Counted from the first letter of the stretch, positions 858 through 59,526 are shown. The stretch is DNA of 64,000 nucleotides from Spartobacteria bacterium (GCA_003169975.1 PNAA01000009.1:62001-126000); one strand, 5' to 3'. The notes: generated from the letters alone by a model not told the origin. Translations and numbers: made by a program.

Positions 858-3008
858 ATGAAAAACAGCAACAAGTTTAGATTCGTTAGTTTCCGCACAT
901 TCCTGGCGGCCGGTTTTTGTTCCGGCGCCGCGCTGCTCGTGTTGACCGCGCTGGGCGTCATCCCAATCACCGCGGCTATGGCGCAGGGAAGCAAGAATCC
1001 GTCGCTGCAAAAAGGTGCGCAACTAATCCCTTCGTATCACAACGATCTTTCGCGTCCTTTGCGCGACCTTGTCAAAGAATGGAAGCCTGACGCGCGCCAG
1101 CAGCGCGAGGCGGCCGAAAACCCGCACATCGCGAACGATCACGTCGATGGGCCCGATCCGGTGATCGAGAAATCATGGCTGAACAAGCTGGCGCCGCATA
1201 TCCCGGCCCCGATCCTAAATTTCGACGGCATCCCATTTCCTGGCGTCGGCTGCAGTTGCGCGCCGCCGGATACCGACGGCGCCGTGGGCAGTACGCAATT
1301 CCTTCAGATCGTCAATGAGGGTTTTCAGGTCTTCGACAAGGCCACCGGCAACTCTCTCCTGGGACCGTCGGGTATTGCCTCGGTCTGGACCGGCTTCGGC
1401 GGGGTGTGCCAGTCGAATGGCGATGGCGATCCCATCGCGCTCTACGACCAGCTGGCAAATCGCTGGATCATTAGCCAGTTTGCCGGGACCAGCGTCCCGA
1501 CCGACGAATGCGTTGCCGTTTCCCAGACGAGCGACGCCACCGGCGCATGGTTTCGCTATGGCTTTCATCTCGGCACCAATTTCTTCGATTATCCCAAGCT
1601 CGCGGTTTGGCCCGACGCCTACTACATGGCGATGAACGTCTTTAACACCGCGGGCACAAGTTTCCTCGGGCCTCAGGCCTTCGCGATGGACCGCACCAAC
1701 ATGCTTCTGGGTAACGCTGCCACCATTATTTCCATGCCGCTCCTGGGCTCTTCATTTCCGCCCATGCTGCCTGCGAACCTCGACGGATCCACCTTGCCGC
1801 CCGCCGGCGCGCCAAACTCCTTCGTCCTCTTTCCGAGCAGCGGCACCTATCGCGTCTATCATTTCTCGGTCGGCAGCCCTTTTGGCACTTCGCCGACCTT
1901 CACTCTCTTCCAGGCTCCGGCCGCGGCGGCCTTCACCCAACTCTGCACCGCGACGCGCGCTTGCGTGCCCCAGTTAGGCGGCACCGGAAGCAATGCCGTG
2001 GACGGGATCGGCGACCGCCTGATGCACCGTCTGGCTTATCGCAAATTCAGCGACGGCCACGAATCGTTAGTCGGCAACTTCACGGTTAGCGCGAGCAGCG
2101 TGGCCGGCATCCGCTGGTTTGAGTTGCGCGGCGTGACTAGCGGCCCGGTCACGGTTTTCCAGGAAAGCACCTACCAGCCGGATACGACCTGGCGCTGGAT
2201 GGGCAGCGCGGCCATGGATGGAGCCGGGAACCTCGCGATTGGCTTTAGCGCGTCCAGTGCCACGATCAATCCGCAAATCCGATACGCCGGTCGATTGGCG
2301 ACTGATCCACTCAACGCGTTGAGTCAGGGTGAAGCACACCTTTTCGACGGCACGGGCAGCCAGACCGGAACCGGCAACCGGTGGGGCGACTACAGCGCCC
2401 TCTCCATTGACCCGGTGGATGACAGCACTTTCTGGTACACCCAGGAATATTATGCCTCGACCGGGACGTTTAATTGGCGGACCCGCATCGGGACCTTCAA
2501 ATTCCCAACGACGCCCGCCTTGGCCTCGGTGGTTTCGCGGCTGACGCATGGCGGGGCAGGCACCTTTGACGTGAATATGCCGCTAACAGGGACGCCGGGG
2601 GTGGAAGACCGCCTCTCGAGCACCTATAACATCGTTCTTACCTTTACCAACGGCCCGATCACTTCGGGCACTGCGACGGTAAGCGCGGGCACGGGAACGG
2701 CGGGGAGTCCGACCTTTAGTGGCAACACCATGACCGTGCCGCTGACCGGAGTTGGCAACGCCCAAACGCTGACTTTGACGGTGAACAACGTCAACGGCCT
2801 GTTGCCCACAGCCAGCGTCAATCTCAGCTTCCTGATTGGCGACACCACGGCCGATGGGACGGTTAATGCCGGTGACATCGGCCAGACCAAATCCCAGTCG
2901 GGCAATGCCGTGACCGCTTCTAACTTCCGTGAAGACGTGACGGTCGACGGCAGCATCAACGCTGGTGACATCGGGCTCGTGAAATCAGAATCAGGCACCG
3001 GACTCTAA
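858..3008 (+). CDS. Secreted protein with dockerin-like C-terminal module
   Basis: A 716-residue protein. A GTG at 825 is in frame, but the ATG at 858 follows AAGGAA and opens directly into a signal peptide (MKNSNKF, hydrophobic stretch, AMAQG cleavage region). The central roughly 470 residues match no family I can name; they contain repeated W/Y-rich beta segments and paired cysteines (GVGCSCAPPDTDGAVG). From about 2515 to the stop it carries the module shared with the next three genes: a beta-rich domain starting VSRLTHGGAGTFDVNMPL, then two calcium-loop motifs DTTADGTVNAGD and DVTVDGSINAGD typical of type I dockerins. Role unknown; extracellular or cell-surface location inferred. Confidence 0.8.
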   Translation: MKNSNKFRFVSFRTFLAAGFCSGAALLVLTALGVIPITAAMAQGSKNPSLQKGAQLIPSYHNDLSRPLRDLVKEWKPDARQQREAAENPHIANDHVDGPDPVIEKSWLNKLAPHIPAPILNFDGIPFPGVGCSCAPPDTDGAVGSTQFLQIVNEGFQVFDKATGNSLLGPSGIASVWTGFGGVCQSNGDGDPIALYDQLANRWIISQFAGTSVPTDECVAVSQTSDATGAWFRYGFHLGTNFFDYPKLAVWPDAYYMAMNVFNTAGTSFLGPQAFAMDRTNMLLGNAATIISMPLLGSSFPPMLPANLDGSTLPPAGAPNSFVLFPSSGTYRVYHFSVGSPFGTSPTFTLFQAPAAAAFTQLCTATRACVPQLGGTGSNAVDGIGDRLMHRLAYRKFSDGHESLVGNFTVSASSVAGIRWFELRGVTSGPVTVFQESTYQPDTTWRWMGSAAMDGAGNLAIGFSASSATINPQIRYAGRLATDPLNALSQGEAHLFDGTGSQTGTGNRWGDYSALSIDPVDDSTFWYTQEYYASTGTFNWRTRIGTFKFPTTPALASVVSRLTHGGAGTFDVNMPLTGTPGVEDRLSSTYNIVLTFTNGPITSGTATVSAGTGTAGSPTFSGNTMTVPLTGVGNAQTLTLTVNNVNGLLPTASVNLSFLIGDTTADGTVNAGDIGQTKSQSGNAVTASNFREDVTVDGSINAGDIGLVKSESGTGL

Positions 3009-3039
3009 AAGTTCGCGATGGCTGCGGGATGTTGCTTCG

Positions 3040-3056
3040 GCTCCCTGCGAGGGAGC
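3040..3056 (+). terminator. Hairpin downstream of first dockerin gene
   Basis: GCTCCCT-GCG-AGGGAGC is a perfect 7-bp stem 31 bases after the stop codon. There is no T-run after it, so a terminator role is only plausible. Confidence 0.4.
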
Positions 3057-3269
3057 ATGGGGTGATCGGTCCGCGTGAAGTTCAGGTGATCTTCATAGCC
3101 GCTCATCTCCTTGCCGGGGGCGGTCAAGCTGGTGATCGCTGCGGAGAAATCTAGACGCTTATTTTTTAATCTTGGACGAAAAAACGTGACAGCCGATTTC
3201 CGCATCAATCGACGGAACAGCAAGTTCATATCCGGGTAAAAAAGGAGAACGGATCCAGGTAGCGCCTAA

Positions 3270-6200
3270 ATGAAGACAAAATCACACTCAAAATCCGGCT
3301 TTCTAAGACTACCCTCTCTTCTTGGATTGAGCTTATGCCTGGCTGGACTGACGCTGGCCGTCTTCGCCTTCGACCAGCCGGCCGAGCGCGCCAGGCAGGC
3401 GGAGAGCCCGCAGCGCGACATGCCGACGCTCCGTGAAAACACCCAGCGGGAAGCCGCCGATCTCGGACAACTGGAACAATACTGGAGCGATCGCTTGACC
3501 TATCCGACGGGTAACTTTGACCCAACGTGGGTGCGGCAGGCCGCGGCCCAACATGCGCTTTTGCCACAAGGCATCCCGGCGGGGCTGTTTCCAACGACCA
3601 AGGGAAATCAGCAAGGAACGGCGCTCAATACCACAAGCTTTACCGCCCTCGGTCCTAAGCCCGAGCGGATGACCGGCTGCAGCGGCTGCTATGACTACAC
3701 CACCACGGAGGGCCGCATCAACGATATCGTGTTTGATCCGACAACCACGACTAATGGCAGCATCGTGGCCTACGTCGCGAGTGACGGCGGTGGCGTCTGG
3801 AAAACCACCAACTGCTGCAGCTCCGCTACCACCTGGAGCGTGGTCACGGATGATCCTCTCATTTCCACGATCGCGATCGACACCCTGACGATCGATCCTA
3901 ACGATCATAACACAATCTACGCCGGCACCGGCGACTTGAACTACGGTTCCTTTTCCCTGGGCAGCCAGGGCATCTTGAAGTCGACCGATGGCGGCAATAG
4001 CTGGACAGTATTGGGCGCCGGCGTTTTCGGCATCGCCTACACCGAGCCACCGGGCCAATACCCACAATACAACGCAGTCGGGAAAGTGCGGGTCGATCCT
4101 AACAACAGTAACAATGTCGTGGCCGGAACGAAGCAGGGTCTCTATGTATCGAATGATGCAGGCATTTCCTGGACCCAGTGCGCCACGAACCCGTATACCA
4201 CGCAGCGTCAGGATATCACCGGGCTCGAGCTGTCCAACATCTCCGGGAGCACGCGCATCATCGCCGCCGTCGGCACGCGCGGCTTTCCCACGGCTGTCCA
4301 ATACGACCTCGGCCTGAACGGCGCGAACGGTATCTACAGCGCCACGATGCCGGCCAGCGGTTGCCCGACCTTTAGCTCGATCGCGAGCAACGCGAACGGC
4401 TTTGTTTTCGGCACCGCCGTGAGCGGCAGCCCCTACACGACGGGCGCGAATATGAATGCCGGCAGCGGCGTTCCTTGTAACTACCCGATAAGCGGTGGCA
4501 CCGCGACCTATTGCGGCGGCGCCAGCCCCACGGACGGCGGCGCCGACAACCTGGGCCGGATCGATATCGCCGTGGCGCCGAGCGATCCTAACACCATCTA
4601 TGCCCAGGTGGGCTCGATCGACTGGAACACCGCCAGCGGCTGTGGCACTACCAATGGCTGTCAGCTCGGCGCATGGGTCTCGACCAATGGCGGAAGCTCA
4701 TGGTCGTTCCTGGCTGGCTCGGCCGGCGGTTCACTCGCGGCCTGCGGGTCAGGGGCAGGCTCCGGCACCGCTGGGAGCGGCGATTATCCACAGAACTGGT
4801 ACGACCAGGGGATTAAGGTGGACCCGAATAATCCTGACCGCGCCTTCTTTGACACCTTCGAAGTCTGGCTGGTGAGCCGCACCGGCACCACCTGGTACGA
4901 CACGACCTGCGGCTACACCGGTGTAAGTCCCAAGCCGGTTCATGTGGACCAGCACGCGCTCGCTTTCCTGCCCGGTTCATCCGACATCCTAGTTGCCGGC
5001 AACGATGGGGGCATGCACGGAACGACCAACGCCAGCGCAGCAGTCTTAAACACAACCAGGCCTACCTGGTTCAACATGGACACCGGCCTGAATGCGATCG
5101 AGTTCTATTCCGGCGACATCAGCGGCAGCTTCGCCACTTCGGCGACCCCATCGGCGGTTGGCGGCGCGCAGGACAACGGCCCCAGCTCGGTCACCTTCGC
5201 CGGCACGCCGACCGGCCCCGTCCAATGGCAGATGGGTTTGGGCGGCGATGGGTTCTCCGGCCAGATTGACCCGGTTGGCACTGGAACCAGTCTCCGTTAC
5301 TGGGAGGGCAACAACAGCGGCGGCCTCAGCCGCTGCATCAGTAACTGCACGGCCGGCGGCGCCACCTGGACCAGTAAGAGGGGCGCCTGGACTGGCGACA
5401 CCCAGTCGTTCGTCCTGCCGATCAATCTTTTCCGCGGCGGCATCTCCGGCGGTGACGACTGTCCGCCAGCCGGAACCTCGGGAGGCTGCGGCCATCTCGT
5501 GGCCGGCACGACCAGAGTCTGGGAAACAATCACGGGTAACGCCGCCAGCACGGTGACTTGGTATGTGACTAACAATCCGACGACCCAAAACATGACCAAA
5601 CAGGCGCTGGGCAACCGTTCCTACATTAACCAGGTCAAGTATTCGCCCAAGTTCCAGAGCGTGGCGATCGTGGGCACGAACGATGGCAACGTCCAAATCG
5701 GATTCAATCTCGGCACCGGCACTCAGGCCCAGGCGACCTGGGTGGACGTGACCGGGGCCAATGTGATTCTGCCTAACCGCCCAATTCTCGGCATCGCGCT
5801 GGATCCATCGGTCTTGGGCGCGAACGTCCCGGTTGGATATGCGGCGGTGGGTGGTTTTAATGCCAATACGCCGACGACGCCCGGCCACCTTTTCCAGGTA
5901 GCCTGTGCCACCTCCTGCGGGTCGTTCACGTGGCTGGATAAGACGGGCAACCTCCCGGATATCCCGGTGGACTCAGTTATCGTTAACCCCAATTTCCCGC
6001 AACAGGTCTTCGCCGGCACCGACTGGGGCCTTTATTACACCGACGATATTACCGCGGCCGCTCCCGTTTGGGCCCGATTCGAGAACGGACTGCCGCACGC
6101 CATGGTCTGGGACATGCAGATCGATCGCGGCGCCACCACGCTCTCGGTCTGGACGCGCAGCCGCGGCGCTTATGTCTGGCCGCTGCCCACCGCCCCGCTG

Positions 6201-6695
6201 ATGGTGACCGGTGTTGTGTCCCGCATGACTCATGGCGGCGCCGGCACGTTCGACATCAATCTTCCGTCCGATGGCAGTGGAATCGAATGCCGGAGCGGCG
6301 GTGTGAATGGCGATTACACGCTGGTCTTTAGCTTCGTGAATTCCATGTCGTCCTGCGGCGTCGCCAATACCGGCTCGGTGAGCAGCGGGCCGAACCCGAA
6401 TCAGTGTACGGTCAATGTGACCGGCGTGCCCAATGCCCAATTCCTGACTGTGACTCTGACTGGCGCGATCGACTCGACCGGAGCCATCGGCGCCGCCTCC
6501 GGGACGATGGGCGTACTGATCGGCGACACCACGGCCGATGGCTCGGTCAATGCCGGCGACATCGGGCAGACCAAATCCCAGTCGGGCAACGCAGTCACCG
6601 CTTCCAACTTCCGCGAGGACGTGACGGTGGACGGCAGCATCAACGCCGGCGACATCGGGCTCGTGAAATCAAAATCGGGCACAGCGCTCCCCTAA
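3270..6695 (+). CDS. Secreted BNR/sortilin-type beta-propeller with dockerin-like tail
   Basis: A 1141-residue protein with a signal peptide (MKTKSHSKSGFLRLPSLLGL and following hydrophobic residues). Asp-box motifs recur (SDGGGVWKTT, STDGGNSWTV, SNDAGISWTQ, STNGGSSWSF), each in contexts such as TIDPNDHNTIYAGTG. This is typical of BNR/VPS10-like propellers found in sialidase-fold and glycoside hydrolase family 74-like proteins. No catalytic residues can be assigned from the sequence alone. The last roughly 160 residues are the shared module (VSRMTHGGAGTFDINLP, then DTTADGSVNAGD and DVTVDGSINAGD). It is the second of four co-oriented genes with that tail. Confidence 0.85.
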   Translation: MKTKSHSKSGFLRLPSLLGLSLCLAGLTLAVFAFDQPAERARQAESPQRDMPTLRENTQREAADLGQLEQYWSDRLTYPTGNFDPTWVRQAAAQHALLPQGIPAGLFPTTKGNQQGTALNTTSFTALGPKPERMTGCSGCYDYTTTEGRINDIVFDPTTTTNGSIVAYVASDGGGVWKTTNCCSSATTWSVVTDDPLISTIAIDTLTIDPNDHNTIYAGTGDLNYGSFSLGSQGILKSTDGGNSWTVLGAGVFGIAYTEPPGQYPQYNAVGKVRVDPNNSNNVVAGTKQGLYVSNDAGISWTQCATNPYTTQRQDITGLELSNISGSTRIIAAVGTRGFPTAVQYDLGLNGANGIYSATMPASGCPTFSSIASNANGFVFGTAVSGSPYTTGANMNAGSGVPCNYPISGGTATYCGGASPTDGGADNLGRIDIAVAPSDPNTIYAQVGSIDWNTASGCGTTNGCQLGAWVSTNGGSSWSFLAGSAGGSLAACGSGAGSGTAGSGDYPQNWYDQGIKVDPNNPDRAFFDTFEVWLVSRTGTTWYDTTCGYTGVSPKPVHVDQHALAFLPGSSDILVAGNDGGMHGTTNASAAVLNTTRPTWFNMDTGLNAIEFYSGDISGSFATSATPSAVGGAQDNGPSSVTFAGTPTGPVQWQMGLGGDGFSGQIDPVGTGTSLRYWEGNNSGGLSRCISNCTAGGATWTSKRGAWTGDTQSFVLPINLFRGGISGGDDCPPAGTSGGCGHLVAGTTRVWETITGNAASTVTWYVTNNPTTQNMTKQALGNRSYINQVKYSPKFQSVAIVGTNDGNVQIGFNLGTGTQAQATWVDVTGANVILPNRPILGIALDPSVLGANVPVGYAAVGGFNANTPTTPGHLFQVACATSCGSFTWLDKTGNLPDIPVDSVIVNPNFPQQVFAGTDWGLYYTDDITAAAPVWARFENGLPHAMVWDMQIDRGATTLSVWTRSRGAYVWPLPTAPLMVTGVVSRMTHGGAGTFDINLPSDGSGIECRSGGVNGDYTLVFSFVNSMSSCGVANTGSVSSGPNPNQCTVNVTGVPNAQFLTVTLTGAIDSTGAIGAASGTMGVLIGDTTADGSVNAGDIGQTKSQSGNAVTASNFREDVTVDGSINAGDIGLVKSKSGTALP

Positions 6696-6808
6696 CGAGC
6701 GGCCTGTTCGAATGGCAACTGTCAAAACACGTTCTTAAAGATTACGTTCATTGGCGGCAGTGCGCAGCAGGTTGACGCGCTGACGCCATTCGGAATTAGA
6801 TCGGGGAT

Positions 6809-8218
6809 ATGTTTTCGAAATTCCGCCTCATTGCGGCAGCCAGCCTCCTCGGACTCCTCGGGATTGCGCCCAGAGTCGCGGGCGCCGGGTTCAACTCAAG
6901 CAGCACGGTTTTCATAATCCTCATGGAAAACGAGAACTGGTCGAGCATCAAGGGCAGCGCTTCCGCGCCTTACATCAATAACACGCTTCTGCCGATCGCC
7001 TCCTATGCGGAGCAATATTACAACCCGCCCGGCAATCATCCGAGCTTGCCGAACTATCTCTGGCTCGAAGCCGGGACCAACTTCGGCATTCTGAACGATA
7101 ACCCGCCTTCGTCGAACCATCAGTCAACGACGAACCATTTCGTTACCTTCCTGAAAAACACCGGAATTTCATGGAAAACGTACCAGGAAAACATTACCGG
7201 AACGACTTGCCCGACGACAGACAGTTATCCCTACGCGGTGAGGCACAATCCCTTCGCCTATTTTGATGACATCGTGAACAACTACTGCGTTTCCGCCATG
7301 CGGCCGTTCACGGAACTGGCGGGCGACCTCGCCAATAACACCGTGTCGCACTATAACTTTATCACGCCAAATCTTTGCGACGACATGCACGACTCCTGCG
7401 CGCCGACGAACAATCCGATCAAGCAGGGCGACACCTGGCTTTCGCAAAATGTGCCGATGATCTTGCAATCGGCTGCCTATCAAAACAACGGGCTCCTGAT
7501 CATTACCTGGGATGAAGCGGTGACGGGCGATGGTCCGATCGGGATGATCGTGCTCTCACCACTGGCGAAGGGCGGCGGCTATCATAATTCACTTGGTTAC
7601 ACGCATAGCTCCACCTTGCGCACTTTTCAGAAAATATTTGGAGTGACACCTTTTCTGGGAGGCGCGGCAACCGGGCTGGATTTAAGCGATTTGTTCGTTC
7701 CCGGTGCGATCCCGAATGGCGATCCGCAGGTTGTCTCGAGACAGGTCCATGGCAGCGCCGGGACTTTCGACATCGACCTGGCTCTCGGCGACGAATGCCG
7801 CAGTGGCGGAGCGACCAATGCTTATCAGCTTGTTTTAACTTTCCCGAGCGCCGTCACTTTCAGCAGCGCATCCGTCACCTCCGGGACGGGAACAGTGAGC
7901 GGCACCAGCGGCAGCGGGACGGCTAGCGTTACCGTCAACCTCACAGGCGTAACCAATGCGCAAACAATCACCCTCACATTATCCGGTGTCAGCGACGGGA
8001 CCGGCACTACTGGTAACATTAGTGTGCCGATGGGCGTGCTAATCGGCGACACCACGGCCGATGGCTCGGTCAATGCCGGCGACATCGGTCAGACCAAATC
8101 CCAGTCGGGCAACGCGGTCACCGTTTCCAACTTTCGCGAGGACGTGACGGTCGACGGCAGCATCAACGCGGGCGACATCGGACTCGTGAAATCAAAATCC
8201 GGCACCGGCCTGCCTTAG
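6809..8218 (+). CDS. Secreted phosphoesterase (acid phosphatase/phospholipase C family) with dockerin-like tail
   Basis: A 469-residue protein with a signal peptide. Residues about 30-300 look like the PF04185 phosphoesterase family of the alkaline phosphatase superfamily. ILMENENW holds the first metal-binding acid/Asn pair, HPSLPNYLWL the likely nucleophile loop, NFITPNLCDDMHD and LLIITWDEA further metal ligands, and YTHSSTLRTF the final His region. It should hydrolyse phosphomonoesters or phosphodiesters outside the cell. After GAIPNGDPQVVSRQVHGSAG comes the shared tail with two dockerin-like calcium loops. A GGGGA lies only 2 bases before the ATG, too close to be a normal SD. Confidence 0.85.
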   Translation: MFSKFRLIAAASLLGLLGIAPRVAGAGFNSSSTVFIILMENENWSSIKGSASAPYINNTLLPIASYAEQYYNPPGNHPSLPNYLWLEAGTNFGILNDNPPSSNHQSTTNHFVTFLKNTGISWKTYQENITGTTCPTTDSYPYAVRHNPFAYFDDIVNNYCVSAMRPFTELAGDLANNTVSHYNFITPNLCDDMHDSCAPTNNPIKQGDTWLSQNVPMILQSAAYQNNGLLIITWDEAVTGDGPIGMIVLSPLAKGGGYHNSLGYTHSSTLRTFQKIFGVTPFLGGAATGLDLSDLFVPGAIPNGDPQVVSRQVHGSAGTFDIDLALGDECRSGGATNAYQLVLTFPSAVTFSSASVTSGTGTVSGTSGSGTASVTVNLTGVTNAQTITLTLSGVSDGTGTTGNISVPMGVLIGDTTADGSVNAGDIGQTKSQSGNAVTVSNFREDVTVDGSINAGDIGLVKSKSGTGLP

Positions 8219-8386
8219 AGCGTGTCATGACACTTGCGGAGCCTGCGTGGCCAGCAAAATTCGCGTCCTCTAGCCGTCGCCCTGTGGGCGACGCGGAGAG
8301 CGCGCTCCAAAAAGCTCGAGAGTGTTGCACGCCCGCGAACGCTTCGCACAGCGAAGCGGCTACAGCCTCATCCGTGGCCCGGCTCG
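8219..8386. repeat. Extragenic repeat G, copy 1
   Basis: About 165 bp starting right at the stop codon of the phosphoesterase gene and repeated after the next gene (10190-10369) at roughly 90% identity. It contains two palindromic parts: GTCGCCCTGTGGGCGAC, and CTTCGCACAGCGAAG followed by CGGCTAC. It looks like a REP/BIME-type extragenic element. The 8387-8447 remainder holds the SD for the next gene. Confidence 0.75.
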
Positions 8387-8447
8387 TGAAGTGCAGGACA
8401 CACACTAGAAGTCGTTGTTGGGTTCCTTCCATCGCGAGGGAGAAAAT

Positions 8448-10184
8448 ATGAAGTTACAGCGAAGCTGGGTGATGGTAGCGACCGTGCTGGGACTCGGAGT
8501 CTGCGCGGGCGGCGCGTTGGGCACGACGCTCCGCGTTGTTTCCTACAATATCGATTGTGCCGACCAGGGAAGCGATAACAACATCACCGGCGCAACCCAC
8601 AGCCTGCCGACGGTAATCCAAGGAATCGGGCTGCACCACATTGGCAGCAATGCGCAGCAAGTTGATGCACTCACGGTGGAAGAACTGACTTCGACGACGC
8701 TGGCGAACTTTGTTACCCAGCTCAACAATACTTACGGCGCGGGGACTTACTCGTACGATACGACCCCTGATCCAAATAGCGGCGGCGGTCCGGACGGGCT
8801 GATTTACAACACCCACACGGTGCAGGTGGTGTCGGCGCGGGCGCTGCCGCTAGGCCAAACGGTGCTCTTGCAGTCGAACGGCACTTACACGATGGCCCAT
8901 TCCCCCGGTGGCGGGGTGAACGGCGTCGTTCGCGCTCCCCTGGTCTACCAACTTCGGCCGATCGGCTACGGGTCGAGCGACGATTTTTACCTTTACGTCA
9001 GCCATGCGCGGAGCACAAGCGACGACTCGGTGGGCGACGCGCGCTACGCCGAGGCACAGGAGGTCCGGAGCGACGCCAAATACAACCTGCCGGCCGGGGC
9101 GCATCTCATTTATGCCGGGGATTGGAATCTGTTCAACGGCAGCGGGGAGAACGCCTACAAGTGTCTTACGGGGCAGACGACTTCCGATGGCCTCAACTGG
9201 AGTGACAGCAGCGCGATCTGGGCCAACAGCAACCCGACCCAAGCCTACGATCCCACCTCCAAGACTAATCCGCCGACCACCACAGTTTGGGCAAACGTGG
9301 CCGGGGATAACGCCAACTATCTCTACGGCGATTCGACGGATTCGCTGACGTCGCGCCTCGACATTCAACTGGTGAATGGCCCGATGCTGGGTGTTTACAA
9401 CAGCCAGGGGGGAGTGCAGCTCGCGCCCGACACGTCGGACCCCTTCGACACTTCAAACTTTCCCTCCGCGAAGTACCCGTATGCGTTCGAGTCCGTCGGG
9501 AACAATGGCACGACACCCCGCAGCGGTTTGGTGACCAATTCCAGTAATCACTCTCTGGATGATCTTACGAGCACGGTCCCGAACGCCGCGACCGTTTATG
9601 CCGATCTTCTGGAAACCGGCAGCGGTAATACCTTCACGGGGAGCGACCACTATCCCATCGTCGGGGATTACAATGTTGTGGCGGCGCTACAGTTGGTCTC
9701 AGCGGTCTCGCGGCTGACGCATGCCGGGGTGGGCGACTTTGACGTGAGCATGCCGCTGAGCGGGACGGCTGGGGTGGAAGACCGCCTGTCGAGCACCTAC
9801 AACATTGTCCTGACCTTTAGCAGCAGCCCGATCACTTCGGGCACCGCGATGGTGACCACGGGCACGGGAGTAGCAGGAACGCCGACCTTTAGCGGCAATA
9901 CCATGACGGTGCCTTTGACCGGGATCAGCAACGCCCAAACAGTGACTTTGACCGTAAGCAATGTTAACGGCTTGTTGCCCTCGGCTAGCGTCAACCTCGG
10001 CTTCCTAATCGGCGACACCACGGCCGATGGCTCGGTCAATGCCGGCGACATCGGCCAGACCAAATCGCAGTCGGGCAACGCGGTCACCGCTGCCAACTTC
10101 CGCGAAGACGTCAACCTCGACGGCAGCATCAACGCCGGCGATATCGGACTCGTGAAATCAAAATCAGGCACCGGCCTGCCTTAG
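8448..10184 (+). CDS. Secreted endonuclease/exonuclease/phosphatase-fold protein with dockerin-like tail
   Basis: A 578-residue protein. The ATG at 8448 follows AGGGAG (8437-8442) with 5-base spacing and begins a signal peptide (MKLQRSWVMVATVLGLGVCA); an upstream in-frame TTG is less likely. EEP-fold motifs appear in order: RVVSYNIDC (active-site Asn), DALTVEEL (metal-binding Glu region), PDGLIYN, YLYVSHARS, IYAGDWNLFN (catalytic Asp/Asn), RLDIQLVNG and the terminal GSDHYPIVGD. It is expected to be a metal-dependent phosphoesterase acting on nucleic acid or phospholipid; substrate unknown. The tail is the shared module, here with the most canonical dockerin loop (DVNLDGSINAGD). Confidence 0.85.
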   Translation: MKLQRSWVMVATVLGLGVCAGGALGTTLRVVSYNIDCADQGSDNNITGATHSLPTVIQGIGLHHIGSNAQQVDALTVEELTSTTLANFVTQLNNTYGAGTYSYDTTPDPNSGGGPDGLIYNTHTVQVVSARALPLGQTVLLQSNGTYTMAHSPGGGVNGVVRAPLVYQLRPIGYGSSDDFYLYVSHARSTSDDSVGDARYAEAQEVRSDAKYNLPAGAHLIYAGDWNLFNGSGENAYKCLTGQTTSDGLNWSDSSAIWANSNPTQAYDPTSKTNPPTTTVWANVAGDNANYLYGDSTDSLTSRLDIQLVNGPMLGVYNSQGGVQLAPDTSDPFDTSNFPSAKYPYAFESVGNNGTTPRSGLVTNSSNHSLDDLTSTVPNAATVYADLLETGSGNTFTGSDHYPIVGDYNVVAALQLVSAVSRLTHAGVGDFDVSMPLSGTAGVEDRLSSTYNIVLTFSSSPITSGTAMVTTGTGVAGTPTFSGNTMTVPLTGISNAQTVTLTVSNVNGLLPSASVNLGFLIGDTTADGSVNAGDIGQTKSQSGNAVTAANFREDVNLDGSINAGDIGLVKSKSGTGLP

Positions 10185-10189
10185 AAGAG

Positions 10190-10369
10190 CGTGTCATGAA
10201 CTTGCGGAGCCTGCGTGGCCAGCAAGATCCGCGTCCTGTAGCGTCCTGTAGCGTCCTGTAGCCGTCGCCCTGTGGGCGGCGCGGAGAGCGCTCCAAAAAG
10301 CTCGAGAAGTGTTGCACGCCCGCGAACGCTTCGCACAGCGAAGCGGCTACAGCCTCGTCCGTGGCCCGT
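10190..10369. repeat. Extragenic repeat G, copy 2, with internal triplication
   Basis: Second copy of the 8219-8386 element, again starting right after a stop codon of the dockerin series. Inside it the 10-mer GCGTCCTGTA is present three times in tandem (about 10231-10260) where copy 1 has one degenerate unit. The tandem expansion points to replication slippage. Confidence 0.75.
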
Positions 10370-10476
10370 CTCCTAAGCGTGTCGGTGAAGAACCAAAGCC
10401 GTCGGCCTCCAAGTCGCCAATCTGATTTGACTGCCTCCCGTGTGGCTGGCAGATCTTTCGCGCCCGAGTTGCTCGG

Positions 10477-11127: not shown

Positions 11128-11313
11128 AAGGTATTTTTCGCCCTGTTGCCGTATTGACCGGGCGACGTTATCATTCCGCGTGTCCGAAACCACGGAGTCC
11201 GATTATTGCCGACTGAATCCGCTTTTTCGGTTGTTCGCCAAGCTGGTTACGCAAATCCCAATAAACTCGCTAGTCAGCTGTGCCGACGGTCCACTAAGAT
11301 CGACCAACCTCTT

Positions 11314-12435
11314 ATGAAATCACATTCTCACTCTCATCCCTTTGCCCTCGTCATTCTGCTCGTTCTGGTCGCCGGGGTACTGGCGACCTGGGCGCAGCCC
11401 TGCGTGGCTGCCCCCTTTCGATTTATGCCCATCGACTCGCTCGCCCACGCCCGCGCTAGTCACACCGCCACGTTGCTCCCCGACGGCAGAGTGCTGGTGG
11501 CTGGAGGTGCTAATGTGGTCGCCCTCGCCTCGGCGGAACTTTACGACCCGGTCAGCGGCACCTGGACCGATACGAATAGCTTGAACACCCCCCACGCCGG
11601 GCATACGGCCACTTTGTTGTCCGACGGCAAAGTGCTGGTCGCAGCGGGCGTCGATGGCCAGGGATTTACCGCCAGCGCGGAACTCTACGACCCGGCAACT
11701 GGTTTGTGGACGCCTACCGGGAGTTTGAGAGTGGCACGCTCGAATCACACGGCGACCCTGCTCCACGATGGGCGGGTGCTGGTCGCGGGCGGTGATGATG
11801 CAGGCGGCGCGACTGCGAGCGCGGAGCTCTATGATCCGGCGAATGGGACTTGGACGCTAACGGGAAGGCTGGTCATGGCGCGCAACAGTCATACGGCCAC
11901 GTTGCTTCCCGACGGGAAGGTGCTTGTGGCAGGAGGTCAGGCGCCCTCACTCTATTTCTTGAGGAGCGCGGAACTTTACGATCCGGGGAGCGGGATGTGG
12001 ACTCTGACGCGCGATCTCCATGGACCGGTGGGACATCATCGCGCAGTGCTTCAACTCGACGGCCGGGCGTTGGTGGTCGGGGGCATCGGGAATCTCAGCC
12101 ATTTTAAGCGCGCGGAGGTTTACGATCCCGCTAGCGGTACGTGGTCGCTGACGGGCCAGGCAAGGGCGGAGGTGTACGATCCGACTGCTACGTTGATCCC
12201 GGATGGCACCGTCCTCGTCACCGGCGGCTCGCAATTCGCCATTTTCGGGACAGCGAGAGCGGAAATTTACGACCCGGCGAGGGCAGAATGGGCCACGACT
12301 GGCAGCCTCACGACCCAACGGCGTGGCCACACGGCGACGTTGCTCCCGAATGGCCAGGTGCTCGTGGCCGGAGGCGTTGACAAGGTGGGCATAGCGATGG
12401 CCACCGCGGAGCTTGGAACGAGTCAGGGACAGTGA
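11314..12435 (+). CDS. Secreted kelch-repeat protein, 7 blades
   Basis: A 373-residue protein from the ATG at 11314 (MKSHSHSHPFALVILLVLVA, signal peptide ending near CVAAP); an upstream in-frame start would bury the signal peptide. I count seven kelch blades built on SAELYDPxxGTW-T-TG...[16 protein letters not shown], about 50 residues each, forming one seven-bladed propeller of the galactose oxidase type. Blade 6 is abnormal: TGQARAEVYDPTATLIPDG lacks the usual Arg-containing turn, and a second RAEVYDP string replaces it, as if by local recombination between units. No catalytic residues are evident; extracellular binding or carbohydrate recognition is inferred. Confidence 0.85.
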   Translation: MKSHSHSHPFALVILLVLVAGVLATWAQPCVAAPFRFMPIDSLAHARASHTATLLPDGRVLVAGGANVVALASAELYDPVSGTWTDTNSLNTPHAGHTATLLSDGKVLVAAGVDGQGFTASAELYDPATGLWTPTGSLRVARSNHTATLLHDGRVLVAGGDDAGGATASAELYDPANGTWTLTGRLVMARNSHTATLLPDGKVLVAGGQAPSLYFLRSAELYDPGSGMWTLTRDLHGPVGHHRAVLQLDGRALVVGGIGNLSHFKRAEVYDPASGTWSLTGQARAEVYDPTATLIPDGTVLVTGGSQFAIFGTARAEIYDPARAEWATTGSLTTQRRGHTATLLPNGQVLVAGGVDKVGIAMATAELGTSQGQ

Positions 12436-12520: not shown

Positions 12521-12680
12521 AACTGTCATTTTCTGCCTTCCCTTCGGTGCCTTCGAATAGAGCGACATTTTGCAACTGACGCTTTCATCCGCATTCTGGG
12601 CCAACCCCCGCGATTTCTTGCTTGACACCGTCATTCACTGCTCGTTACGCTCCGCGCTGTTGGTTATCCGGACTAAAACT

Positions 12681-13820
12681 ATGAAAACATTGCGTTCCCT
12701 GATCGCCGGTTCTCGACTAGCCGCGTCAAATCCAGTCCGGCGGATCGCGTTCCCGCTGCTTCTTCTCGGTGTGGGGCTGGTGCTCGTGCAGCCTTGCCCG
12801 GGTGCGCCCTTTGTTTTTCAGCCCACGGGTAGCATGATACAGGGACGCGTAGGTCATACGGCGACGTTGTTGCCTGACGGGAGGGTCCTCGTCGCGGGCG
12901 GTTATAACGAAGTCGAGATCGCGAGCGCGGAACTCTATGATCCGGCGACCGGGATCTGGACGAACACCGGGCGGCTTGCCACCGGACGCCAGAATCACAC
13001 GGCGACGTTGCTGCCGAATGGCATGGTGCTGGTCGCAGGCGGAACGGACCGCGGTGGCGTGACCGCCAGCGCGGAACTGTACAATCCGGCGACTGGGGCT
13101 TGGACGGCCACCGGCAGCCTCATCCTAGACCGCGAACTTCACACGGCTACATTGCTGCCCAACGGCATGGTGCTGGTCGCAGGCGGTTTGGGTTCGCGCG
13201 GATTTGTCGCGAGCGCGGAACTCTACGATCCTGCGAGCGGGACCTGGACTGCCACCGGCCGCCTTGCCACTGCGCGCTATGGTCACACGGCGACGTTGTT
13301 GCTTGACGGCAAGGTGCTCGTCGCAGGCGGATGGGCTGATTCCAATCCTTTCGCGAGCGCGGAACTTTACGATCCGGCAACCGGCATCTGGACGGCTACC
13401 GGCAGCCTCACCACCGGACGCTATTACCACAGGGCGACGTTGTTGCTCAATGGCAAGGTATTTGTCGCAAGCGGACTGAATTTCAGTGGTCCGGTCGACG
13501 CGGAACTCTACGATCCGGCGAGCGGGACTTGGACACCCACCGGTACACCCATCGATGGACGGGCTTTCCCCACGGCGACATTGCTGGCGGACGGCAAGGT
13601 GCTCGTTGCGGGAGGGGAGGAACTCGGCAGTTTCTATACCTCGAGCGCGGACATCTACGATCCGGCGACCGGGTCCTGGACGGTCACAGGCAGACTCACC
13701 TCCCGACGTGGGGGCCAGACGGCGACGTTGTTGCCCAATGGCAAGGTGCTTGTCGCAGGCGGTTTCAGCGGCCATAACACACTCGCGAGCGCGGAACTCG
13801 GTGCTCGCCGGGGGCGGTGA
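12681..13820 (+). CDS. Secreted kelch-repeat protein, 7 blades
   Basis: A 379-residue protein from the ATG at 12681 ([20 protein letters not shown], then a hydrophobic signal core ending at PCPGAP). The N-terminus closely resembles that of the 14-blade protein at 36780-39263, which fixes the start. Seven kelch blades are present, each with a [17 protein letters not shown]-like strand pair and [13 protein letters not shown]. Blades 5 and 6 vary ([32 protein letters not shown]). It is the most intact member of the kelch cluster. Function is unknown beyond the propeller fold and the expected export. Confidence 0.87.
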
Positions 13821-14820: not shown

Positions 14821-15987
14821 ATGAGCCGACGCTCCATGAAAAGGGTACCCCCGGTCTCTCAAACTTTCCGCCCAGCCTTCCCGTTCCGCATGAAGCAGGT
14901 CGCCGCGCTTCTTCTCCTGGGTGGGATGAATCTATGCGTCGCTCATTACGGTCGTGCAAGCGACGGCGGCATGCTGATTAATCCGCGCTCGGCGCACACG
15001 GCTACCCGGTTGGCGAATGGCCGCGTCTTGCTCGTCGGAGGTCTCGTGGCTGGTGGGAGCGTAACCTCGACTTGTGAAATCTACGATCCCGCGACCAATT
15101 CCTGGACGGCCACCGGATCTCTTAATCAAGCGCGTGACAGCCATGGCAGCGTCCTTCTTTCGGACGGCCGCGTGCTCGCGGTCGGAGGTGCTGGATCTAA
15201 CTTCCTTCTGATCAGCTCAGCGGAAATCTACGACCCCTCTACGGGAAAGTGGACTCTTACCGGCTCCATGAGCGTGGCGCGCGTTCTCTCTGATCCCGTC
15301 GCGCTCACGAACGGCAAGGTCCTCGTCGCTGGCAACGGCGGCGACGCCAAGTCGTCTGAGCTTTACGATCCTGCGATCGGCACATGGGCGCCAACCGGCA
15401 GCCTGAGTCAACGGCGGGACTTTGCTTCCCAAATGACAGTGCTAACTAATGGCCGTGTTCTCATCGCAGGCGGACATTCTCAGAGAGTCGGCTATCTTTC
15501 CGAAACTAAGCTATATAACCCGGCGACCGGCGTTTGGACAAAGCAGGGTTCGCTTGCCAATGGCCGCATTTATCACGCGCAAGTACTTTTGCCGGACGGG
15601 CGCGTGCTCATTGCCGGCGGAGTAGTAAATCCTCCGTCCGCCGTTAAGGTCACACGTAGCACAGAAATCTACGACCCTAATACCCGGCTTTGGAGCTCGA
15701 GCCATCCCCTCGGAATGGAGCGGTTCCAATTTACCGCCAATCTCCAGAGCAATGGACAGGTCCTCGCTGCGGGCGGAAACGACGACCCTACGGCCTTCGC
15801 TCTTGCCAGTCTTGAGCAATACGATCCCACTTCTGGCGCATGGCAGACGCTGGCTCAAACCCTCGCGACGCCGCGCACCGCCCATACCGCAACCACTTTG
15901 TTCGACGGTAGCATCATTCTCGCGGGAGGCACAGACGCCAGCGGAAAGCTTATCCCTTCAGCCGAGCTACTCGCTGCGCCACAGTAA
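14821..15987 (+). CDS. Secreted kelch-repeat protein, 7 divergent blades
   Basis: Up to 388 residues; the ATG at 14890 (MKQVAALLLLGGMNLCVAHY) gives a cleaner signal peptide than the ATG at 14821. Seven kelch-type blades are recognisable, but they diverge more than in the neighbours ([49 protein letters not shown]), while retaining EIYDPxTxxW. It is bracketed by direct repeats C1 and C2, so the gene could be lost or amplified by homologous recombination. Predicted exported propeller; ligand unknown. Confidence 0.82.
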   Translation: MSRRSMKRVPPVSQTFRPAFPFRMKQVAALLLLGGMNLCVAHYGRASDGGMLINPRSAHTATRLANGRVLLVGGLVAGGSVTSTCEIYDPATNSWTATGSLNQARDSHGSVLLSDGRVLAVGGAGSNFLLISSAEIYDPSTGKWTLTGSMSVARVLSDPVALTNGKVLVAGNGGDAKSSELYDPAIGTWAPTGSLSQRRDFASQMTVLTNGRVLIAGGHSQRVGYLSETKLYNPATGVWTKQGSLANGRIYHAQVLLPDGRVLIAGGVVNPPSAVKVTRSTEIYDPNTRLWSSSHPLGMERFQFTANLQSNGQVLAAGGNDDPTAFALASLEQYDPTSGAWQTLAQTLATPRTAHTATTLFDGSIILAGGTDASGKLIPSAELLAAPQ

Positions 15988-16600: not shown

Positions 16601-17701
16601 CTAACGACCACCGAGCTCTGCGCTCGCCAGAGATTCGCCCACATGATTCGTACCGCCTGCGACTAAAACCTGGCCGTTATGAAGTAACGTCGACGTTTGA
16701 CTCGCTCGCGCAGTCGTTAGTCTCGAGACTGTCCAAGTCCCTCTTACTGGATCGTAAACTTCTGCGCTCGAGGTATAGAACAAGGCAAGTTCTTCCCCAC
16801 CTGCGACGAGTGCTCTGCCGTCGGCCAGTAAGGTCAGGGTGAGAAATGCCCTGGTATCGACGGGTTTGCCGACGGACATCCATGTCGCAGACGCCGGATC
16901 ATACATTTCCGCCGCGAGCTGACCCGCGCCATTATTAAGACCGCCGGCGACGAACAGCTCTCCGTTCTGGAGTAACGTCGCCGCATGATAGTAGCGTCCC
17001 ATCGCCAGACTGCCGGTTAAGGTCCAAGTCCCAGTAGCTGGATCATAGAGCTCGGCGCTTGTGAATGGAGTAGTATCGGCCCAGCCACCGGCGACCAGCA
17101 CTTTGCCACTGGGAAGTAAATTGGCGGTATGACCATAGCGCGCCGTAATTAAGTGGCCGGTCGTAGTCCAAGTCCCGCTAACTGGGTCATAGAGTTCGGC
17201 GCTAGCCGTCACACCCTGTGGCCCCAGACCGCCTGCGACCAACACCTGCCCGTTAGGCAGTAACGTGGCCGTGTGCAGGTGGCGGGCGACCGCAAGGCTG
17301 CCGGTCGCCGACCAACTCCCAGTAATCGGGTCATAGAGCTCCGCCGTCGCGGTATCGAAACCAATTCTGTCCTCTCCACCTGCGGCCAGCACGCGCCCGT
17401 TAGGCAACAACGTTGCTGTATGCTCAAAGCGGGGCGTGACAAGACTCCCGGTTCCGGTCCACACCGCGGTCGCTGGGTCGTAAAGTTCCGCAGTGCGGAG
17501 CGAACCAAAGCCTCCGGCCGTCAGCACCTTCCCATCCGGGAGCAAGGTGGCCGTATGGGCTGAGCGCGCGTGCGCCATGCCGCCGGTCGGCGTGAAATGG
17601 AATGGCGCCGCCAGCGCAGGCGGCACGAGAGCGAACCCGATTCCTAAGAAGAGAGCGAGTCCGGTTAAGAGACAGTGAGAAGCGTTATAAGACAGTTTCA
17701 T
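16601..17701 (-). CDS. Secreted kelch-repeat protein, 7 blades
   Basis: A 366-residue protein on the minus strand, starting [20 protein letters not shown] with a signal peptide to ALAAP. Seven blades follow the family consensus ([16 protein letters not shown] through [16 protein letters not shown]). The blade-by-blade pattern (RYYH in blade 5, RAF in blade 6, [17 protein letters not shown] in blade 7) matches the gene at 12681-13820, so the two are recent paralogues now in opposite orientation. The C-terminus ends SAELGGR at the close of the propeller, like its paralogue. Confidence 0.87.
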
Positions 17702-33303: not shown

Positions 33304-35154
33304 ATGGATTGGCGATTCTATTTTCACAAAAAAGGCGGAGGCGAAGTGACCACAGATGAAAGCAGCCCCGACAGGGAAGAGGTGTCCGTCGATGATCTAC
33401 GGCGACATCCCTGGCAGACGATAATCGGCGGGCAGCGGACCAAAAAAAATAGCAGCTATGGGCGAGCGTTACTTGCCGAGGCTGAACGGCTCAAGGAACG
33501 AGGAGAGTTTAGCGGCGAGCGCGCCTTCTCATTCCTCGCGAAAATAGCGGCGCTTTGGCCCGATTACAACCTACCGGGGAACCCGTATGAACAGCCGTGG
33601 ATGAAATCTGCCCCCTTGTCACCTTCAGATTTGGATGTTCTCGAAGAGGTATTTGGCGAGATTGAAGATCCTGAGTTCAAAGCCCGAGTCGGGGACGTCC
33701 TTTGGGAGTTTCGCCGGCGACATGATGCGGCAACTGTTGCAGCAAACGCATTTGTAGACTCGGCACACCGCCTTGAGGAGGCAAAGCTGTGGCCTCCCTT
33801 TGTCAAAAGGCTGGAACGTGCCTTAGCCTTGGCCGGCAAACTTGGCCGGGGAAAGCCGCTTCACACTCGCCTTTGCGACGAGGTCGAGCAGACCATAACA
33901 AAATACAAGGAGGTAAACGAGGCTGGATTTCTTTGTTCCAGACTTATCCAACTACTTGACAGCCACAGAAGGCTGGACTCAGCCCGCTATTCAAAGCTCT
34001 GCAAAGACTTGGCAGCCCGATTCTCAGCGGCGAAACAATGGGACAAAGCGCACGATTATTGGACGTTGTCCGCAAAGCACTGCCGGCGACTTGAGGATGC
34101 ACCTGCAACTAGCAAAGCACTCGTAGAGGCTGCCGAATGCTGGGCCGCGAAGGCTGAGGAAAATATTGCCAGCGAGAATCCAAATGCACTTTTCGCCGCT
34201 CATTGGATGGGAAAGGCGTTTTACGAGCTGCAACAGGCCAGCGCCCCGGAGGAGCGCCAAATCGAAGTCCATCGGCGACTCCGAGAACTTCAAAAGAATG
34301 GATTAAAGCGGATGTCCCCGCTGCCAATTTCCGAGGAACTATTGGAGAAGTTTGAAGAGCATGAATCGAGGATAGCTGATTTCGCGAGGGAACATGTTCG
34401 GGGACTTGACTTCGATGAGGCGCTATGCCGATTAGCGTTCATGGCAGAGGTTCCCGACCCCAGCGAGATTAAGGCGCGTATCGAATCGGAGAGTAGTCAC
34501 TCCGTTTGGACGCAAATAATACCGACGGCAACTGTTACCGAGAGCGGACTAACAGCGGACCAACTCGGACCGATGCCAACTTCGTCGGGTCCGGAATACG
34601 ATGATTGGATGGTGAAGCGGGCATACCTTCACGCGCGTCAGCTTGAATGGCCCAGCTTGGCAACACTGATCGAAGCAGCACGTGAGCAGATTGTCGAGGA
34701 AAATTGCCCCAGTATCGGTGACTTAGTGTCACTCGTAACGAGTAACTCGTTTATTCCTCCGGGTCATGAAGGCATTTACCGGCGGGGGCTGTATGCCGGT
34801 TTGGTAGGCGACTGGCTGGTTGCTGTTCATCTCCTTGTCCCACAGCTTGAGGCGTCCATTCGTCAAGTTTTCGAGCAAGAGGGCATCCGAACGTCGAGCG
34901 TCGAATCGGAAGGAATCCAAGAAGAAAAACTTCTCGGTAAGCTTCTTTTTCATGAAAAGATGGAGAATTTGTTTGGAGTCGCACCGACCTTCAACCTTCG
35001 CGGCATTCTCGTAGAAAAGTTGGGGTTCAATTTAAGAAATGATATGGCGCATGGCTTCATATCCGAGGCGGGTTTTTTCTCGCCAGCCGCGCCCGTTCTA
35101 TGGTGGTTGACCTTGCGGATGTGTTGGCTGGGGTCGACCGCTGTTGAGCCTTGA
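33304..35154 (+). CDS. DUF4209-domain protein, candidate defence gene
   Basis: A 616-residue protein starting MDWRFYFHKKGGGEVTTDES. The N-terminal two thirds are helical and lack known motifs. The C-terminal about 120 residues carry the DUF4209 pattern: IYRRGLYAGLVGDWLVAVHL, LVPQLEASIRQVFEQEGI and FNLRNDMAHGF, the last an RNxxxH-like HEPN signature compatible with RNA binding or cleavage. The codon choice is more AT-tolerant than in neighbouring genes. It sits between a tRNA-Ser scar and repeats D and E, in keeping with an acquired island. A phage-defence role is inferred only. Confidence 0.7.
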   Translation: MDWRFYFHKKGGGEVTTDESSPDREEVSVDDLRRHPWQTIIGGQRTKKNSSYGRALLAEAERLKERGEFSGERAFSFLAKIAALWPDYNLPGNPYEQPWMKSAPLSPSDLDVLEEVFGEIEDPEFKARVGDVLWEFRRRHDAATVAANAFVDSAHRLEEAKLWPPFVKRLERALALAGKLGRGKPLHTRLCDEVEQTITKYKEVNEAGFLCSRLIQLLDSHRRLDSARYSKLCKDLAARFSAAKQWDKAHDYWTLSAKHCRRLEDAPATSKALVEAAECWAAKAEENIASENPNALFAAHWMGKAFYELQQASAPEERQIEVHRRLRELQKNGLKRMSPLPISEELLEKFEEHESRIADFAREHVRGLDFDEALCRLAFMAEVPDPSEIKARIESESSHSVWTQIIPTATVTESGLTADQLGPMPTSSGPEYDDWMVKRAYLHARQLEWPSLATLIEAAREQIVEENCPSIGDLVSLVTSNSFIPPGHEGIYRRGLYAGLVGDWLVAVHLLVPQLEASIRQVFEQEGIRTSSVESEGIQEEKLLGKLLFHEKMENLFGVAPTFNLRGILVEKLGFNLRNDMAHGFISEAGFFSPAAPVLWWLTLRMCWLGSTAVEP

Positions 35155-39263: not shown

Positions 39264-39308
39264 AGTTCTAGCCTCCATGTTTTTCATCTGCTCCAGCTCC
39301 GTCTGCAA

Positions 39309-46578: not shown

Positions 46579-47673
46579 TTAGGGCGCCGTCAAGGCCCCA
46601 ATCTCACAGGACGCCCGGCGTGTCGTCGAAATACCCCCGGCGACTAGAATCGTGTCATCGTTGAGCAGCGTTGCCGTGTGGTCGGAGTGTGGTCCCTTCA
46701 TTTTCCCTCTCGTCCACGTGGCGGTAGCTGTGTCATACAGGACCCAGGTATTTGGCGCGCCCGTCGTCACGTCGCCTGTCAGCACAACGTTCCCATCCAA
46801 AAGAGTGGCCCGATGAGTATAACGCGGCCTCGGCAGGGAAGCTGTCGGCGTCCACAATGCCGTGGAGGGATCATAAAGCTCGGCGCTGGCGGTCGCCCTT
46901 GTCCCATCGAAGCCGCCCGCTACCAATACCTGGCCACTTGGTAGAAGCGTAGCGGTATGATCGCTGCGCCCGACCGCGAGGCTTCCTGTGACCGTCCAGA
47001 TGCCGCTAGCCGGATCATAAATTTCGGACTCCTGCAGGCGATTGTTTTTGTTCTGTCCACCTGCGGCGAGGACGCGGCCGTCGCTCAAGAGGGTAAGTGT
47101 CAAAGGTGCCCGTCCGATGTGGAGGCGGTCGGTCGGCGTCCATGTTCCAGTCGCTGGATCGTAAAGCTCGGTGATGGTGGGATAGGTGGTGCCCGGAGGG
47201 GCAACTCCTCCGGCGACCAGCACTTCGCCCGTGTTGAGTAAAACAGCCTCATGGAGCACACGCACCGTGGACATGTTGCCGGTCCCGCTCCACTGGCCGG
47301 TTGCAGGATCGTAAACCTCCGCCGAGTCGAGAAGGGTAACGCCGTTTTGTCCCCCGGTTACGAGGACACGTCCATCGGGTAGTGTGGTGCTGGTATGATT
47401 TTGGCGCGGACCGGACATATTCCCGGTGAAGCTCCATCGACCCGACGCCGGATCGTATAACTGGGCGCTCGCCACGATCCCGGAGCCATCCGACCCTCCG
47501 GAGATGAGGACCTCACCAGCCTGGAGCAAACTGGCGGAATGACTAAAAACGTCGCCATTGGTTGGGCCCGTCGGAGTCCAGGTGAGGCCGGAGGTCTGAG
47601 CTTTGCTGACTATTGGCAGCGCAGCCGCGGCGATAAAAAGGAAACCGACGGGGGATAGGCGGGATATCTTCAT
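46579..47673 (-). CDS. Secreted kelch-repeat protein, 7 blades
   Basis: A 364-residue protein with a signal peptide (MKISRLSPVGFLFIAAAALP, cleavage near SKAQT). Seven blades can be counted (FSHSASLLQAGEVLISGG through HTATLLNDDTILVAGG). Blade sequences are less uniform than in the 12681 and 36780 genes. It ends CEIGALTAP directly after blade 7. The only kelch gene in the right half of the window, with no repeat A, B or C beside it. Upstream 47674-47829 holds no gene. Confidence 0.85.
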   Translation of the reverse strand: MKISRLSPVGFLFIAAAALPIVSKAQTSGLTWTPTGPTNGDVFSHSASLLQAGEVLISGGSDGSGIVASAQLYDPASGRWSFTGNMSGPRQNHTSTTLPDGRVLVTGGQNGVTLLDSAEVYDPATGQWSGTGNMSTVRVLHEAVLLNTGEVLVAGGVAPPGTTYPTITELYDPATGTWTPTDRLHIGRAPLTLTLLSDGRVLAAGGQNKNNRLQESEIYDPASGIWTVTGSLAVGRSDHTATLLPSGQVLVAGGFDGTRATASAELYDPSTALWTPTASLPRPRYTHRATLLDGNVVLTGDVTTGAPNTWVLYDTATATWTRGKMKGPHSDHTATLLNDDTILVAGGISTTRRASCEIGALTAP

Positions 47674-59149: not shown

Positions 59150-59526
59150 CAATGGGCGAGTTAGAACAACGCAAGTTGGAGCTTGAGATTGCAGAATTGA
59201 AGCGCCCCTTCTGGCAAAAAGCGGCCTATATTGGCGCGTCCATCCCTATTGTATTGGCCGTTCTAGCGTTTCTTTCCGCGTTGTTCAGCGGTTATTTCAA
59301 CCAAGAGCGTATTGATTTACAAAACGAAATTGCAACATTGAAGGTAGAACGAGACGCCATCGCGTACAACAACGAACGAGCTAGTCACATGGTAGATCAG
59401 TTCACTAAGCAGGCCGGCCGCCACCTAGAAGACATCCAAAAAGAAGAACAGTGGGTTGTAGAACACCGGCTCGGGCTGGCGACAATCCTGTACTCGCCTA
59501 CACCCAGTCCAACCCCTGTCCCGTAA
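59146..59526 (+). CDS. Passenger gene 5, single-TM coiled-coil protein
   Basis: 126 residues from an ATG overlapping the previous TGA (ATGA). MTMGELEQRKLELEIAELKR is a short coiled coil. One TM segment follows (YIGASIPIVLAVLAFLSALF), then a second coiled coil (ERIDLQNEIATLKVERDAIA) and a PTPSPTPVP tail. The stop codon lies inside the right terminal repeat of the transposon. Topology with an outside or inside coiled coil suggests a membrane anchor or sensor for the other passenger products. Confidence 0.7.
   Translation: MTMGELEQRKLELEIAELKRPFWQKAAYIGASIPIVLAVLAFLSALFSGYFNQERIDLQNEIATLKVERDAIAYNNERASHMVDQFTKQAGRHLEDIQKEEQWVVEHRLGLATILYSPTPSPTPVP

Follow-up and report, generated by a model that had tools for sequence, protein, structure and literature searches.

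An Ig-like and dockerin-like tail with a putative symmetric recognition signature on four neighboring exported proteins of a Spartobacteria genome

A common tail on four adjacent genes

In the 64,000-nucleotide stretch of Spartobacteria DNA analyzed here (the window), four adjacent plus-strand ORFs all end in a common tail of about 160 amino acids, in which an Ig-like domain is followed by a dockerin-like domain. We think it somewhat probable that this tail is a calcium-stabilized docking tag by which propellers, proteases and phosphoesterases are brought together on a cohesin-like receptor.

Gene 1 (858 to 3008, with an ATG at 858 in an ORF that is open from a GTG at 825) codes for an exported protein composed of an N-terminal domain, the Ig-like domain and the dockerin. 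Its N-terminal part has no Pfam family, but is one of six related N-terminal domains in this genome, all joined to the same tail. Gene 2 (3270 to 6695) encodes a tail-bearing exported protein that resembles a BNR/sortilin-like beta-propeller; its match to PF15902 (E=4.7e-6) is below the Pfam cut-off. The exported product of gene 3 (6809 to 8218) is of the phosphoesterase family PF04185 (E=5e-26). The exported product of gene 4 (8448 to 10184, with an ATG at 8448 in an ORF open from a TTG at 8415) looks like an endonuclease/exonuclease/phosphatase, judging from its motifs and a weak match to ExeM/NucH (NF033681, E=0.028). All four leaders are hydrophobic and the N-terminal parts represent four different sequence families, which confirms a preliminary description of four neighboring exported proteins with unrelated N-terminal parts and one common tail. 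That description also spoke of different enzymes; this stands for the phosphoesterase and, more weakly, for the nuclease-like protein, but not for the propeller of gene 2 or for gene 1, which lacks a Pfam family.

Elsewhere in the window, an exported kelch-propeller family without the dockerin tail is encoded at 11206 to 12435, 12570 to 13820, 14821 to 15987, 16601 to 17701, 36780 to 39308 and 46579 to 47673; yet outside the window, at C18:147582, a kelch protein with the tail is encoded. A protein with DUF7380 and DUF4209 domains is found at 33304 to 35154, and a TIR-like protein and an ISXO2-type transposase-like protein were recognized by eye near the right end, at 59498 to 60436 and 56683 to 57636.

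Architecture of the tail

Each tail comprises an Ig-like half of about 105 amino acids and a 57-amino-acid half (GDTTADGSVNAGDIGQTKSQSGNAVTASNFREDVTVDGSINAGDIGLVKSKSGTGLP) with two calcium-type loops. The Ig-like halves of genes 1 to 4 are located at 2529 to 2837, 6212 to 6521, 7729 to 8044 and 9704 to 10010, and the dockerin halves at 2838 to 3005, 6522 to 6692, 8045 to 8215 and 10011 to 10181, all on the plus strand. The loops are DTTADGTVNAGD and DVTVDGSINAGD in gene 1, and DTTADGSVNAGD and DVNLDGSINAGD in gene 4; in the window tails generally, loop 1 reads DTTADG[S/T]VNAGD and loop 2 reads DV[T/N]xDGSINAGD. The C-terminus of the tail is that of a globular dockerin, ending in SGT[G/A]LP.

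The AlphaFold2 model of the gene 4 module (pLDDT 97.6, pTM 0.91) has two domains, with a helix behind each loop. Its Ig-like half, which reached a pLDDT of 95 when modeled alone and 97.6 in the whole module, is a nine-strand sandwich; the fold of the gene 1 half was assigned by homology to this model. The Ig-like half begins VSRxxHGxAGTFDIxLPLxGxxGVECR and has invariant residues S8, E31, R33 and F44. It is an orphan family, with no sequence relative in Pfam or among PDB sequences. Foldseek searches with the whole module and with the Ig-like half returned generic Ig-like folds only, none at E<=0.001, and no NCBIfam family covers the tail module.

The dockerin-like nature of the second half, proposed in the preliminary description, is borne out by comparison with dockerins of known structure. 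A single sequence matched PDB dockerins at E=2e-4, and the dockerin profile matched Xyn10B (2ccl) at E=4.5e-7, 1ohz at 9.2e-6 and others also, as well as the X-module and type II dockerin of the ScaA scaffoldin (2b59) at E=7.8e-6. Genome-wide, 20 of 27 rows exceed the Pfam cut-off for PF00404; with the whole window proteins, one of four passes (24.5 versus 22.9 bits) and the other three score 20.5 to 21.2. Two duplicated loop-helix (F-hand) repeats are present in nearly all full copies tested. The calcium ligands are conserved, D1 in 121 of 123 and 123 of 123 modules and D12 in 122 of 123 and 121 of 123 for the two repeats, respectively. By its loops and its homology we place the 57-amino-acid part in the dockerin superfamily, and the conserved ligand residues suggest that the loops bind calcium.

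Copies in the genome and among relatives

This genome of a soil verrucomicrobium (4.47 Mb, 97% complete) holds 27 tail copies in at least 27 genes, far above chance (best E 1e-94), and all 27 are C-terminal. Outside the tail, most of the encoded exported proteins differ from one another; where a copy has an N-terminal part of some size, that part belongs to one of 13 families. No intact copy has the dockerin without the Ig-like half. Two truncated copies (G000 C48:86058-86309 and C13:15835-16008), which have neither the Ig-like half nor a long reading frame, are probably decayed copies or cassettes in transit.

The named relatives from a DNA scan were Chthoniobacterales/Spartobacteria MAGs. 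When 58 relatives were surveyed, the module was found in 22 genomes (this one included), which belong to a single family and have at most 28 copies; the 21 genomes from the order's other families were all without it. In 289 genomes sampled across the phylum, it was detected in three members of that family, and in one further genome there was a weak match. We regard the module as essentially restricted to one family of Chthoniobacterales (Verrucomicrobiota). A plasmid search for it gave no match, and the literature searches made found no paper on dockerins in these Spartobacteria.

Propellers (BNR, kelch, DUF5122) made up most of the N-terminal parts of 97 tail-bearing proteins, and subtilases and metallopeptidases (reprolysin) some of the others; no glycoside hydrolase was among the 25 commonest families listed. 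A strongly hydrophobic N-terminal segment was present in 48 of 55 tail genes in the clusters examined. A recurrent leader, SAFFNLRVLLGxxLxxxGVFLALL, was seen on the tail-bearing proteins L042, L044, L161 and L166 and also on one tail-less paralogue (C15:96174-98126), and is possibly a dedicated signal or anchor sequence.

Exchange of the dockerin DNA

The dockerin DNA (the last 168 bp or so) of genes 1 to 4 is 86.9 to 92.9% identical in pairwise comparison, whereas the DNA of the Ig-like halves is 47 to 59% identical, with the exception of genes 1 and 4 (81%). This disparity in most pairs argues that the module has been exchanged or homogenized. Of the codons that specify the same residue in window pairs, 15 to 32% differ synonymously between dockerins, as against 57 to 67% between Ig-like halves. 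The value for the Ig-like halves of genes 1 and 4 is 34%, and for these two genes a whole-module relation of more recent date is indicated. Synonymous differences in comparison with copies on other contigs were similar to the window values.

Between genes 3 and 4, identity rises from about 55% to about 93% at the border of the Ig-like and dockerin halves, and similarity extends about 190 bp beyond the stop codon, at 84% identity. These 3' flanks (8216 to 8385 and 10186 to 10372) appear to represent a common exchange or duplication tract. The jump at the border, the similarity of the flanks and the like values on other contigs together argue that the dockerin cassette has been exchanged or converted genome-wide, not merely among neighbors. 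The alignment of the 3' DNA thus supports the earlier suggestion that the last 170 bp of these genes were shuffled or converted. Near-alike 3' flanks with an inverted repeat, CCGGGAGTCGTCC...GACTCCCGG, were also seen after the stop codon at C15:91539, C15:101790, C9:56001 and C12:140284 of this genome (G000), which suggests that the cassette travels with a terminator-like flank.

A recognition signature at loop positions 10 and 11

Repeat 1 was compared with repeat 2 in 123 unique modules against shuffles. The two repeats were identical at position 10 in 77 modules, where 29.5 were expected (z 11.5), and at position 11 in 71, where 21.2 were expected (z 13.0). The next strongest coupling was at positions 17, 5, 13 and 14, and metal-ligand positions 3, 5 and 9 likewise co-vary between repeats; positions 2, 6, 8, 15, 16 and 19 showed no inter-repeat coupling in these modules. 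Since positions 13 and 14 co-vary too, part of the coupling may be structural. After collapse to one module per genome and class, 14 of 70 were symmetric versus 2.0 expected (0 of 5000 shuffles); the coupling stayed at positions 10 and 11 (0 of 5000) and 13 (1 of 5000), and became marginal at the calcium-ligand positions. In independent pairs taken from a tree of the Ig-like half, a test that covers positions up to 11, repeats 1 and 2 change together (OR 6.6, p 3e-4 at position 10; OR 9.0, p 3e-5 at position 11), and both rows were symmetric in 12 pairs for position 10 and 17 for position 11. Codon similarity between the two repeats is not higher inside one gene than across genes, and intragenic conversion between the repeats was therefore rejected as the source of the symmetry. 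The uniformity within genomes could be due to conversion alone.

Eight symmetric pairs were seen at positions 10 and 11 (SA, AG, SS, AS, AI, AA, VG and AT). Some genomes are nearly uniform, with SA/SA in 11 of 11 and 9 of 9 modules and SS/SS in 11 of 12; asymmetric paralogues in the present genome have NG/TQ, NG/NQ and KP/TV. In C. thermocellum dockerins, which have a dual binding mode, a Ser-Thr pair at positions 11 and 12 (10 and 11 in our loop numbering, which is one lower than that of the paper) forms hydrogen bonds with the cohesin in both orientations (PMC4728124). Binding in two modes has also been shown for symmetric dockerins of R. flavefaciens (PMC5301203). The pattern at positions 10 and 11 is what would mark a dual-mode dockerin whose receptor is particular to the lineage.

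A docking tag and its alternatives

The preliminary description saw no cohesin, and this holds well beyond the window: Pfam cohesin PF00963 has no match at E<=1 anywhere in the 4.47-Mb genome and none at E<=0.1 in any of the 22 module-bearing genomes. Three relatives have any cohesin match, and all three are without the module. Among the neighbors of about 30 tail-gene clusters in five genomes there was no recurrent receptor-like gene, the only recurrent neighbors being serine/threonine kinases, two-component genes, kelch paralogues and housekeeping genes (names assigned by eye). Since no receptor was found, we only infer docking and the receptor.

Under the docking reading, the two calcium-type loop-helix repeats would fold after export into a dockerin, as the fold and homology indicate, with calcium presumably bound. 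The dockerin would then plug into a cohesin-like receptor in either of two orientations by virtue of its pseudo-twofold symmetry. The receptor would be located on the cell surface or on a scaffold, and would have diverged too far for detection with the Pfam cohesin model; the module would thereby co-locate beta-propellers, proteases, a phosphoesterase and a nuclease-like protein. Positions 10 and 11 would form a lineage-specific code, AG in the main group of this genome and SS, SA, VG or A[I/V] in relatives. Selection for the receptor, to which the sequence signatures point, would keep this code matched within a protein; across paralogues, the matching would be maintained as the 170-bp dockerin cassette is exchanged or converted. 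We put forward tentatively a fuller version, in which this Verrucomicrobiota family has a non-cellulosomal extracellular assembly with an Ig-dockerin tag and a genome-specific, two-fold symmetric code, the candidate receptor being a far-diverged cohesin or another dockerin-binding domain.

Alternatively, the tail might be a calcium-stabilized C-terminal cap that aids extracellular folding or resistance to proteolysis without any protein partner. The failure to find a cohesin in this and the other module-bearing genomes, the co-variation of the metal-ligand positions and the presence of the tail on many unrelated proteins are as this would predict. However, the coupling peaks at 10 and 11, which are not ligand positions, and survives the genome-and-class collapse in which the ligand positions turn marginal; nor does a role in stability predict one code per genome. 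We consider a cap unlikely.

Homotypic assembly, in which the Ig-like half or dockerin face of one protein binds the dockerin of another and the proteins polymerize, would make a separate cohesin unnecessary, and the constant company of the nine-strand, orphan Ig-like half is in keeping with it. Yet the best 50 folds found by Foldseek for the Ig-like half are generic and include no cohesin, and the Ig-like halves diverge while the dockerins are uniform, unlike a matched pair; such assembly seems highly improbable.

The tail favors the protein end but can sit elsewhere. Among 130 distinct modules complete to their end, 109 have no more than 3 residues after it, 18 carry 7 to 45 extra residues and 3 are internal. 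The internal copies are followed by a PT-rich linker and then a Calx-beta-like stretch (L073, by eye), adjoin a PT-rich stretch (L128), or lie between repeats inside an RHS/YD-repeat-like protein (L076, G028:C20, by eye). It had been proposed earlier that the tail may be a surface-attachment or sorting signal and not a cellulosome dockerin, a proposal to be abandoned if the module were internal in many proteins; internal copies do occur, in 3 of 130 copies from relatives and in none of the 27 here. A C-terminal sorting or anchoring signal read by a dedicated processing or export machine, comparable to PEP-CTERM or T9SS tails, accords with the many copies that end at the module and with their diverse exported carriers, but is very doubtful in view of the extended and internal copies, which reject a strictly terminal signal, the lack of a C-terminal transmembrane helix or basic tail, and the seven PEP-CTERM proteins over the cut-off in this genome, a class distinct from the tail proteins. 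With residues at cohesin-contact positions co-varying as well, a terminal sorting signal is improbable; the tail may nevertheless attach proteins to the surface by way of a docking partner.

Comparison with known systems

The tail resembles type I dockerins (PF00404; Xyn10B and CelS of C. thermocellum) in its two DxNxDGxxNxxD loop-helix repeats within about 57 amino acids, its C-terminal location on diverse secreted proteins and its symmetric recognition positions 10 and 11. It differs in having a fixed Ig-like partner domain and a short conserved (S/A)NFR[E/D]D link between repeats, and in occurring in a genome without a cohesin or a cellulosomal enzyme set. A cellulosome was rejected on the lack of any cohesin match at E<=1 and of glycoside hydrolases among the 25 commonest families listed.

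Like the X-module and type II dockerin of scaffoldins (CipA and ScaA; 2b59, 3kcp), the tail has a beta-sandwich directly before the dockerin; the tail profile matches this pair from the last part of the X-module onward into the dockerin, and the SANY link there resembles SNF. However, the carriers of the tail are enzymes and propellers, with as many as 28 copies, instead of a single scaffoldin. Searched by itself, the Ig-like half matched no CipA or ScaA X-module among PDB sequences and had no X-module among its best 50 folds, and the tail was not classed as an X-module-dockerin dyad (XDoc).

A non-cellulosomal use of cohesin and dockerin for extracellular peptidases, the 'planctosome', has been proposed in freshwater Planctomycetes (PMC6461901); there cohesins are identifiable, whereas none was found for the present system. 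As with PEP-CTERM/exosortase, GlyGly-CTERM and T9SS tails, a common C-terminal module is found on otherwise unrelated exported proteins, but here it is a folded two-domain globular module that is not strictly terminal and has no transmembrane or basic tail. Its globular dockerin end and its internal copies set it apart from a PEP-CTERM/exosortase tail.

What is new is the Ig-dockerin combination, its family-restricted expansion and a receptor-like evolutionary signature in the absence of a known receptor. Dockerins without recognizable cohesins are often dismissed as calcium-binding decoration. The tail sequences carry a measurable partner-recognition signature, symmetric and lineage-switched at positions 10 and 11, in genomes without a known partner, and the binding target of such orphan dockerins thus becomes testable. 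The approach also provides a statistical test, general in scope, with which to look for receptor-selected dockerins in other systems, and the tail may point to a surface protein-assembly system in soil bacteria.
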